Of a stretch of DNA of 64,000 nt, positions 23,014 to 27,943 are shown in pieces. The stretch comes from Myxococcales bacterium (lineage in GTDB: Bacteria > Myxococcota_A > Polyangia > Nannocystales > Nannocystaceae): NCBI GenBank assembly GCA_014240065.1, contig JAAZXR010000013.1, positions 1-64,000 on the forward strand. Direction: 5' to 3'. The notes beneath the pieces were generated by a model. The model worked only from the letters and a program-made list of their open reading frames with translations. It was not told the origin of the DNA and ran no database searches. Each line of letters begins with the position of its first letter. Position 1 is the stretch's first letter. The translations under genes were made by a program, and so were the position numbers.

Positions 23014-23634
23014 CTATCGGAAGCGAGCCCCAGACGGCAACGTTCGCCGCAGGCAGGTGATGGTGTTCGGGGCGTTGGGCGCGCTCCAATAGGACCGTCG
23101 AGGGTCGTGAGCGGTCCCTTCTGCGATCCCTTCCGTCGGCGACCACGACGGGGCCACGCCCGGTGCGAGGATGTGAAGGCCGCTTTGTAGCGGTCCAATG
23201 ATGTAGGTGTGCCCAGCGATCCGGGCGCCGACCTGCTCGGAGAGCCGCCGCCCGAAGTCGTGGCCGGTGTGCGCGCCGAGGGTCTCGCAGGTTCGAAACC
23301 ACAACGTCGCGTCCGAGGAGCGCATGTGTCGACCCACCTCCGAGAGCAGGTGGGGCAGCTCGCCTCGGCCCGACAGGGCAGGGAGGTCGAGGCTCTCGGC
23401 CCCGAGGAGCGCGCGGCCCCACTTTCCGTGCCCCCAAAACTGGATCTCGTCGATCGCATGGTGATCGGCCGCGTCGAGGGTCGCCCGGAGCGCTTGCGCC
23501 CATGACCGGGAGGGGATCACCGCGTCAAAAAACCGCGCACGACCGAACAGCTTCGCCCCGATCGCAAACGAGCGAGACAACCATCGCGTCGCCCCCGGTC
23601 CCTCGCAGTCTCGGTCGTAGATCAATATGCGCAT
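23014..23634 (-). CDS. Small protein with possible caspase-like (clan CD) His/Cys dyad
   Basis: 206 residues from an ATG. The N-terminal MRILIYDRDCEG begins like a Rossmann-type strand. Two blocks stand out: AIDEIQFWGHGKWGRALLG, with His69 followed by Gly at the end of a hydrophobic strand, and DATLWFRTCETLGAH, with Cys116 at the end of the next strand. This His-Gly and Cys placement after successive strands is the layout of caspase-hemoglobinase fold proteins (CHAT, DUF4347, gingipain-like). The 47-residue spacing is plausible for the fold. No signal peptide is visible and no second domain. Function is unknown; protease activity is inference only. It is convergent with panD. Confidence 0.6.
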   Translation of the reverse strand: MRILIYDRDCEGPGATRWLSRSFAIGAKLFGRARFFDAVIPSRSWAQALRATLDAADHHAIDEIQFWGHGKWGRALLGAESLDLPALSGRGELPHLLSEVGRHMRSSDATLWFRTCETLGAHTGHDFGRRLSEQVGARIAGHTYIIGPLQSGLHILAPGVAPSWSPTEGIAEGTAHDPRRSYWSAPNAPNTITCLRRTLPSGARFR

Positions 23635-23782
23635 GAACGCAGGCCGGTTAACGATAGCGCGGATGTGACGGGCAGCGGCGTCGACTGGCGCGGGGATTCG
23701 CGGGACCGTGACTGCGTGGTCTGCGCTGCTTTTTTCACGGCGCCAAAACCTCTACTATCTCGGGAGCTAAGGACCTGCATTT

Positions 23783-26700
23783 ATGAATCGTATTGCGTTG
23801 TTGTTGTCTTCTTCTCTTTTGGTGGTGACCGGCTGTTCGGACGGCTCAAACGCGAGCATGGGCTCTGGCTCTGCGTCCGAATCGGTCAGTGCGACCGGTG
23901 ACGGCGACGGCGACGGCGACGCTGACGCTGACGCTGGAACTGAAACCGGTGGGATGGACGCGGATTCGGACTCGTCTGGGGACGGGGACGGAGATGGAGA
24001 CGGGGATGGAGACGGGGATGGAGATGGAGACGGGGATGGAGATGGTGACGGAGACGGAGACGGAGACGGGGACGGGGACGGGGACGGGGACGGGGACGGG
24101 GACGGAGACGGGGACGGGGACGGGGACGGGGACGGCGACGGAGACTCGGCAACCGGCGGCGACGGCGACGGCGACGGGGACGGAGACGGAGACTCGGCAA
24201 CCGGCGGCGATGGCGATGGCGACGGCGATGGTGATGGTGACGGGGACGGCGACGGGGACGGCGATGGCGACGGAGACGGCGACGGTGACGTCTGCGGGGA
24301 CGGGATGGTCACGGGGAGTGAGGCCTGCGACGATGGGAACACGAACACCGAGGCGTGCCCCTACGGGGAGACGAGCTGTGTGGTGTGTGGGCCGGACTGC
24401 GAGGTGGTCTCGGGGATCGCCAGCTACTGCGGCGACAACGTGATCGATGGGATCAACGGGGAGACCTGCGACGACGGGAACGCGGTCACGGAAGCGTGCG
24501 CCTACGGAACGCTGTCGTGCACCGTCTGCGACGCCAACTGCGTGGAGGTGCCAGGGGCGGTGAGCTACTGCGGCGACGGCACGGCGGACCCGGGGAACGG
24601 AGAGGCGTGCGACGACGCCGGGGAGTCCGCCGATTGCGACGGCGACTGCAGCGCTGTGGAGTGCGGCGACGGACAGATCAACGCCGCCGCCGGAGAGGCG
24701 TGCGACGACGGCGCGGCCAACGGCGATGGCGTCTCAGACTGCAGCGCGACCTGCAGCGTGAATATCTGTGGAGACGGCTACGTGGGGCCCGGTGAGACGT
24801 GCGACGCGGGCGCCAACAACGGCGACGGCACCTCCACCTGCGGACCCGATTGTGCGCTCAATACGTGTGGGGATGACTACCTCGGTCCCGGCGAAGCGTG
24901 TGACGACAACAACACCATGGGCGGGGATGGTTGCTCGGCGACCTGCGCGCTCGAGAGCTGTGGCAACGGCGTCCAAGATGTGGGGGAGGCGTGTGACGAC
25001 GGCAACGCCGACAACGACGACGGGTGCACCGCGGCGTGCCTGCCCCCGACCTGCGGAGACGGGTTCGTGCAATCGGCGACCAACGGCGAGACCTGCGACG
25101 GAGATGGCGCCGGGACCGGCGGGGCCACGGCCATCTGCGACGAGGACTGTACGGCGGTCACGTGCGGCGATGGCGTCGTCAACACCCTGGCCGGGGAGTC
25201 GTGCGATGGGAATAGCCTCGGCACAGGCGGTGAGACGGCGTCCTGCGACGCGGACTGCACCCCCGCGGTGTGTGGGGACAGCGTGACCAACCCGACCGCC
25301 GGGGAGACCTGTGATCTCGGCGTCGTCAACGGCAACGGCCTGGTGACGTGCAGCGGGGCGTGCAAGCTCAACGTCTGCGGCGACGGTTACCTGCTGACCT
25401 CCCAGGAAGCCTGCGACGACGGCGTGAACACCGGGGTCGAGGGGCTCTCCGACTGCAAACTGAATTGCTCCCTCACCACCTGCGGCGACAGCTACCAGGG
25501 GAGCTCCGAGGGCTGTGATGACGGCGGCAACGGAGACCCCGACGACGGCTGCACCGACGCGTGCGCGCTGCCCACCTGCGGGGATGGGATCGTGCAGCCC
25601 AACTCCAACGGAGAAGCATGCGATGGCGACGGCGCCGGCAATGGAGGCGAGACCGCCGCGTGCAACAGCGACTGCACCGCCGCGTCCTGTGGCGATGGGA
25701 TCGTGAACGCCTCCAACAATGAGGAGTGTGACGGGGATGGCGCGGGGAACGGGGGAGAGACGGCCAGCTGTGATCTCGATTGTACGGTGGCGACCTGCGG
25801 GGATGGGACCGTGAACGCCGCGAACAACGAGACCTGTGACGGAGACGGGGTCGGGAACGGGGGCGAGACCGCGACCTGCGACGTCGACTGTACGGCGGCG
25901 TCGTGCGGGGATGGCGTCGTGAACACCTTGAACGGCGAAGTTTGTGATGGGGACGGCGCGGGCAATGGGGGGGAGACGGCCACCTGCAACACCGATTGCG
26001 CCGAGGTCGCCTGCGGGGACGGGATCGTCAACGCGACCGCCGGGGAGGTCTGCGATGAGCTTAACGCCAACAACGACGACGGGTGCACAGCGGAGTGCAA
26101 GGCGCCCGCCTGCGGCGATGGCTACGCCCAGCCCTCCTCCAATGGAGAGGTGTGCGACGGCGGCGATATCGGCGCGGAGACCTGCGTGAGCCAGGGGTTC
26201 GGGAGCGGTGATCTCGCGTGCGCGCCAGCATGCGACGTCTACGACACCTCGGCCTGTGATTCGTGCGGCAACGGGGTCGTCGAAGAGAGCTTGGGCGAGG
26301 AGTGCGAGGACGTGGGGTGGCCACCACCACCGTGTACACAAGACTGCAAGTGTGAGGTTGGTACCACCTACTGTGCATCCGACCCTGGCGATCCAGGGAG
26401 CGAGCCTGTCTGTGCCAACACGGCCAATGATACCCAGAACTGTGGCACCTGCGGGAACGTGTGCCCGACGGGCTACTTTTGTGGGTTGTTCGCAAGTGGC
26501 GAGTGCGCCGACAATCGCACATTGAGTAGGCGTGGGGTCGTGTACGACGGCGTGGATGGAGCGGTCGGGTACCCAAGGCCCACGACGGATCCGCAGGTGG
26601 ACGTGGGGCCACGCTCCGCGCTTGGCCTCGAGCAACTGTACCCGACGGTGGCGTTCAAGGTGCGCGATCCGTATTTTGTGCCGCAGGTGGACGCGCCCAT

Positions 26701-27943
26701 GGAAATCCACGTGGCGAAGGCGTTGGACTTGGCGGGATTTCCTGTGGGGATTCCCAGCGGCGCGGACGCGGAGGCGAGCGCGGCGAGCCTGGCGTGGCGA
26801 CGGACGACGCCGACCGAGGGCCCGATGGTCGCCTACGTGGACGAGGGCAGCCCCGACATCGTCTATGTCACAGAAGCGGTCGTGCCCGACCTCGCGAGCG
26901 ACTGGGGGGCGCCGGTGGCTCGCTCATCCACCTCGGCCACAGCGACCTCCTCTGGAATTCAGGCGCCGGTCCTCGCCGACAGCACGGGCGGGCAAGCGCT
27001 CGCGTGGTTGCAGCACGACCCGCTGAGCGTGGCGGTCAAGGTGCATACGCACGTCACCTACCAGCCCTTGGTTCAAGACCAGATCCTCGATCCGGGGGTG
27101 AGCGGACCCGCCGATTTCGTGGATCTCGACGTGAACGACGTGGGTGATGGCTGGGCGCTCTGGCGGGAGTCGGACAGCGGCGTCTCCAAGGTGTACGCGC
27201 GCCACCTGACCTCGTCGGGGTGGTCCACGGAGGATTACTCTGTGCCCGTCTGCAACGACGCGGGGGTCGCCGACTCTCCGCCGGCGCTCGCGGTGCACGA
27301 CGTGGGCACGGGGGCGTTTTTCGCGTGCGAGGTGAGCGGGGATATTCATGTGGGCCGCCTCGAAGCACCCAACACGGTCCTCGACTTCGTGAACCTTGAG
27401 GGGGATGGCATCGAAGACTCCACCGAGGTCCGACTCATCGTCGAGCCGGGCACCGACAACCCGCGGGCGCTCGTGACGTGGGAGGCTTCTTCCTCCAACA
27501 CGATCCAGTACCGCTTCTACGATCCCAGCCTGGGGTGGGGTGCGGAAGGGACGCTCTACGCCGACACGCAGAACCTCATCGCCTACGAGATCGGCATGGA
27601 CAATCGTGGGGAGGTGTGGGGAATCTCGTTCGTTGACGGCACCGGGACCACAGGGGATGCCTGCGCCGTCGACGCGGACTGCGGACCGGACAGTCGCTGC
27701 ACGTCGGGCGGTGTGTGTGATGTGACCATGGGCTCCCTCGCTTCTTCCAAATACGTGTTCCTCCCCGGAGGCGGGATGGGGCAGTTCCAAGAGGACTTCT
27801 CGTCAAGGGCCGTCAATGGCATGGCCACCAAGACCGACCTGGATGTGGACGAGGACGGCAACGTGATCCTCGCGGTGGAGGAGTGGAGCTCGAGCGTTGG
27901 GGGCTCCAGGGTCGCCGTCTATGTGAACTTCACCATTTTTTAG
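23783..27943 (+). CDS. Giant surface lipoprotein: Gly-Asp spacer plus 19 cysteine-rich repeats
   Basis: 1386 residues. AAGGA lies 11 bases before the ATG. A short signal peptide ends with Val-Thr-Gly-Cys18, a lipobox. Residues about 39-169 form an acidic Gly-Asp spacer. Then come 19 tandem units starting CGDG/CGDx and continuing with a CDDG or CDGD block, as in the Myxococcus cysteine-rich repeat (DUF4215). Two CGxC-type units ([16 protein letters not shown]) precede a ~430-residue C-terminal domain of repeated beta strands that may be a propeller ([39 protein letters not shown]). Such proteins are exported and disulphide-rich. A cell-surface role is inferred. It is the first gene of the (GD)n lipoprotein island. 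Confidence 0.88.
23897..24289 (+). repeat. Hexanucleotide array coding for the Gly-Asp spacer
   Basis: About 390 bp of imperfect GGGGAC/GGNGAY repeats coding for Gly-Asp dipeptides, interrupted twice by Asp-Ser-Ala-Thr-Gly-Gly. The unit is six bases, so slipped-strand gain or loss keeps the reading frame and changes only spacer length. Similar shorter arrays occur at 31488-31571, 33901-34053 and 36088-36195. Confidence 0.92.

Follow-up and report, generated by a model that had tools for sequence, protein, structure and literature searches.

A stand-alone DUF4347 protein with a predicted caspase-type fold, near-universal in one myxobacterial family and shared with phages

A short gene lying next to a lipoprotein island in the window, the whole 64,000-nucleotide stretch of DNA that was analysed, raises two questions: whether its product has the caspase-like (clan CD) fold suggested by the placing of a His-Gly and a Cys, and whether it serves the surface proteins encoded beside it. 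The open reading frame at 23014-23634 runs on the minus strand from an ATG at 23634 and encodes a protein of 206 residues. Coordinates, motifs and residue numbers in the original prediction all proved correct on re-reading; the strand, absent from it, is added here. In the translation His69 indeed stands in AIDEIQFWGHG (QFWGHG) and Cys116 in DATLWFRTCETLG (WFRTCET). The protein was also rightly said to have no signal peptide, since the first strand of its structural model spans residues 2-7 and leaves no room for one. Judged by sequence comparison, the gene is real, far beyond chance: it has orthologues in the genomes of its bacterial family, and both residues are invariant in 57 sequences.

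Pfam searches assign the protein to a single family, DUF4347 (PF14252), with a score of 27.6 bits against a curated gathering cut-off of 24.6, the match being partial and covering model positions 37-133 of 164. Its own genome contains no further DUF4347 match, and 27 of 30 orthologues match the family at E-values up to 1. It had been stated that the protein contains no other recognised domain; this is true, with the correction that the protein is itself a member of a Pfam family. Other searches gave little. The Pfam CHAT family did not match at E-values up to 10, DUF4347 alone being listed, and NCBIfam produced a chance match only, so that no peptidase family in either collection matches the protein. 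Neither single-sequence phmmer nor profile searches of the chains of solved structures gave a match, and PHROGs yielded nothing for the bacterial protein.

The relationship to DUF4347 is clearest when the protein is aligned, using hhalign, with a canonical domain (locus L093): His69 falls on the conserved HG and Cys116 on the conserved GC of the family. The canonical domain lies close to the N-terminus of a large repeat protein, rich in Cys and apparently exported, whereas the window protein is a single domain without export signal and bears a signature of its own, comprising QFWGHGxWG, WFRTCE, AGHT and QSGLH. It belongs, in short, to a new, well defined, stand-alone subfamily of a known domain.

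The fold was modelled with AlphaFold2 for the window protein along with 30 orthologues (pLDDT 92.8, pTM 0.90) and for a phage-borne copy, L087, with 32 sequences (pLDDT 93.4, pTM 0.89). Proteins of clan CD have an alpha/beta topology in which the catalytic His follows strand 3 and the Cys follows strand 4. The two models agree in showing this expected order, strand-helix-strand-helix-strand(His)-hairpin-helix-strand(Cys)-helix-strand. In the window protein the elements are strand 2-7, helix 17-32, strand 38-42, helix 45-56, strand 63-67, after which comes His69, and strand 110-114, after which comes Cys116.

In Foldseek comparisons with the PDB both models rank Tce1 first (9qpe_G, from a complex with Hcp3; E-values 8e-4 and 1.3e-4, TM-scores 0.55-0.63), followed mostly by C11 peptidase, SAVED-CHAT, caspases and legumain, with a few lower matches to unrelated folds. 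Matches in the viral library were mostly of low confidence, clostripain and caspase-domain proteins among them. As the TM-scores are modest, only around 0.4 for caspases, the kinship is at superfamily level. For caspases, orthocaspases, C11/clostripain and legumain the likeness consists of predicted topology and dyad placement; there is no sequence-level match, no p10-like unit is recognised and the conserved pocket residues are different. SAVED-CHAT shows a clan-CD fold likeness at a Foldseek probability of about 1 but, unlike the CHAT proteases (SAVED-CHAT and the Craspase component Csx29), the window protein has no Pfam CHAT match, TPR, SAVED or sensor partner. The Pfam match, the two confident models, the clan-CD-dominated Foldseek results and the conservation of the dyad together support the caspase-like fold originally proposed, and a caspase-type fold with His69 and Cys116 at the two catalytic places of clan CD is well supported as a structural prediction.

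Conservation was assessed in two sets. In an alignment of 53 sequences the invariant residues are D7, Q65, W67, H69, G73, W112, R114, C116, G124, F127, H142, T143, Q150-L153, W164, S184 and T191. The set of 57 contains, in addition, four remote phage copies that are 29-36% identical to the window protein, and 52 of its members are below 80% mutual identity; here 15 columns remain invariant, including D7, W67, H69, W112, R114, C116, H142, W164, S184 and T191. The conservation of His69 and Cys116 in homologues, put forward beforehand as a check on the fold, is thus complete: the codons of the predicted general base (23428..23430, minus strand) and of the predicted nucleophile (23287..23289, minus) are matched in 53/53 and 57/57 sequences. 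Asp7, at the end of strand 1 (23614..23616, minus), is present in 50/50 and invariant in the larger set. A further subfamily signature, from AGHT (140-143) to QSGLH (150-154) and encoded at 23173..23217 (minus), may form a pocket loop; in it H142 is invariant and T143, Q150, S151 and G152 are each found in at least 55 of 57 sequences. The window protein is a divergent member, differing at about 12 well conserved positions (for example F23 for W, A51 for W and H103 for R); despite these departures it keeps every active-site candidate.

The subfamily is unevenly distributed. The gene itself or an orthologue is found, as one strong match each at 35-100% identity, in 28 of the 29 genomes searched from this bacterial family, the sole exception being a genome that is 54% complete. 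In the phylum as a whole it is present in 43 of 379 genomes, near-universal in this one family and patchy elsewhere. The gene tree is poorly resolved, with the phage rows on long branches. The bacterial family does not form one clade in it, at least two label changes being forced by well-supported branches, and this suggests, as far as such a tree can be read, that some transfer of the gene has taken place.

Genomic context is much less conserved. Across 32 of 47 loci (at the other 15, left out, gene calling missed the core gene) no operon is conserved across the family, and local synteny is confined to subclades. In one of these (L038:7235-9370, with orthologues in L040, L044, L047, L048 and L054, partial in L039) the gene follows one whose proline-rich product has a membrane segment and, at its C-terminus, a weak Lcl_C match of 21.1 bits, below the cut-off; in several genomes of the same subclade it is convergent with a gene for an M74 endopeptidase. 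In the window the gene is convergent with panD (an Asp_decarbox match), beyond which come genes for a DUF429 and a UPF0158 protein. A promoter scan found nothing.

On its other side lies the gene for a Cys-rich GDGDGD lipoprotein with DUF4215 repeats (23783-27943), and it was this neighbour that had led to the idea of a processing or signalling component of a lipoprotein island. The two genes are adjacent, as described; they are transcribed divergently, with 148 bp between their starts, and so are not operonic. That divergent adjacency, and the observation that the distant relative in L093 fuses a canonical DUF4347 domain to Cys-rich CGD repeats of the same general kind, would favour such a role. 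Against it, none of the other neighbourhoods examined shows the adjacency, and a protein without a signal peptide is in the wrong compartment. With the neighbour not conserved and no export signal, a role in the surface island is unsupported and we regard it as extremely improbable. The caspase-fold protein instead looks like one that is probably intracellular and not part of the neighbouring surface-protein genes. The original structural reading is thus supported while the functional setting proposed with it is not.

Two features of the Cys-rich proteins may be recorded separately. The window lipoprotein has a long in-frame (Gly-Asp)n tract at 23783-24348, opposite which a (Pro-Ser)n open reading frame occupies 23767-24348 on the minus strand. 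In L093 (1-2184, minus) the repeats following the DUF4347 domain are of the form CGD...CDTGG.

The top structural match raises a different possibility, that a type VI or related contractile system injects the protein as cargo, in the role of an effector. Tce1 (PA0256) of Pseudomonas aeruginosa itself contains DUF4347 (PMC8262886) and is a cargo of the H3-T6SS; both it and Tce2 have been proposed to be cysteine proteases (PMC13323088). Tce2 has 190 residues, with His65 and Cys115, and its toxicity to yeast is relieved by the C115S mutation (PMC13323088), so that size and dyad spacing are similar to those of the window protein. This likeness rests on published numbers and is a lead rather than a tested homology, the comparison with Tce1 and Tce2 being based on the papers and the Foldseek match, not on their sequences.

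The match to Tce1 in its Hcp3 complex and the presence of Hcp in 22 of 29 family genomes are what an injected cargo would lead one to expect. In contrast to Tce1 and Tce2, however, the window protein has no sequence match to solved chains and is encoded by a near-universal chromosomal gene in a genome without T6SS markers: although 97.7% complete, that genome has no match to Hcp, VipB or Phage_sheath_1, and therefore the protein is not T6SS cargo in this organism. Two genomes (G011 and G019) likewise keep the caspase-fold gene yet have no match to any of the three, and VipB is absent from 27 of the 43 genomes of the phylum that carry it. Where an Hcp gene is present it lies elsewhere in the genome, and the occurrence of one copy in nearly every family genome, as well as of copies on phages, also counts against delivery as cargo. 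It is thus unlikely that in this organism the protein is an effector injected by a contractile system, and as an account of the protein generally we give this idea very little chance.

What, then, might the protein do? The reading that we prefer, and think probable, is that it is a free-standing cytosolic DUF4347 cysteine peptidase of clan-CD fold using Cys116 and His69. It would be an endopeptidase whose nucleophile is Cys116 and whose base is His69, and it would cleave a specific cytosolic protein, or a few such proteins, in a pocket that may be built from other invariant residues (D7, W67, R114, H142/T143, the QSG loop and W164). Proteolysis itself is something we infer. Proteins of the clan whose His-Cys dyad is intact are for the most part peptidases.

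The same conservation can be read otherwise. Outside the dyad, the set of invariant Trp, Gln and His is not what one usually finds in a general peptidase; a different Cys-dependent reaction would fit it. Fold and Cys-His pair would then be real and the reaction not proteolysis, the protein being a Cys-dependent transferase or ligase, or a binding protein that makes use of the conserved pocket. The number of invariant residues outside the dyad (W67, W112, R114, H142, W164, S184 and T191), beyond what a general peptidase needs, and the lack of any Pfam or NCBIfam peptidase match speak for this. The prevalence of peptidases in the clan speaks against it, as does the dependence of the yeast effect of Tce2, so similar in size and dyad spacing, on its Cys (PMC13323088). 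On balance we consider a non-proteolytic reaction a minority prospect.

A CHAT-like part in immunity or in regulated cell death has also to be considered, phage copies then being counter-defence or hijacked versions. Clan-CD proteins act in bacterial immunity, Craspase being one case (PMC9729208); SAVED-CHAT is among the fold matches and phage-borne relatives exist. Nevertheless, no PADLOC match was obtained for any of 30 members and there is no conserved partner gene, which argues against a known defence system, though not against one of a type yet to be described. The protein has no sensor domain, and its near-universal single-copy presence in the family differs from the patchy distribution of most defence genes. 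An immunity role therefore seems improbable to us.

To return to the peptidase, phages with relatives would presumably apply the same activity to host or phage proteins. More speculatively, and with considerable doubt, a cytosolic caspase-fold cysteine peptidase that is near-universal in one myxobacterial family and present on several phages could belong to an undescribed host-phage or cell-fate pathway. The finding would gain in interest should the phage copies and the host protein share a substrate.

DUF4347 is still labelled as of unknown function and, as a protein of interest, has been discussed for the P. aeruginosa T6SS effector (PMC8262886). What is new here is that a subfamily is described which stands alone, is near-universal and is shared with phages; being conserved and without secretion partners, it indicates that the fold serves, in addition, a role that looks intracellular. 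With its small size, its single domain and so strict a set of invariant residues, the protein is, moreover, directly testable.

The phage-borne relatives share 29-40% identity with the window protein and lie on viral contigs of 36-176 kb, whose viral status is the label given by the collection except for two judged phage-like by gene content. One of these looks like a real phage in that RuvC, RecA and a Toprim protein of DnaG type are encoded immediately ahead of the gene and on its strand, the other in having a weak match to a head maturation protease and a DNA methyltransferase. With the window protein and two of the phage copies as queries, tblastn found nothing in deposited phages; with one phage copy it found nothing in plasmids.

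Some neighbours on these contigs merit mention in their own right. Directly after the caspase-fold gene, overlapping it or nearly so, L136 (10540-11226) and L138 (10531-11148) have a gene whose product, 205-228 residues long, combines a membrane segment at the N-terminus with an HExxH motif; BLASTP shows no likeness between the two products, and in the phage loci HExxH turns up five times among 37,456 residues. In L087 (5974-6657), two genes after the caspase-fold gene, there is a lipoprotein-like trypsin-family protease (Trypsin_2, E-value 3.5e-17). Finally, several phage proteins (L085 193-696, 1157-2407 and 6547-7023, all minus strand; L133:18201-19601, minus) have in common an N-terminal stretch resembling ALRAAAAVLA, which is reminiscent of a capsid-targeting or prohead leader.
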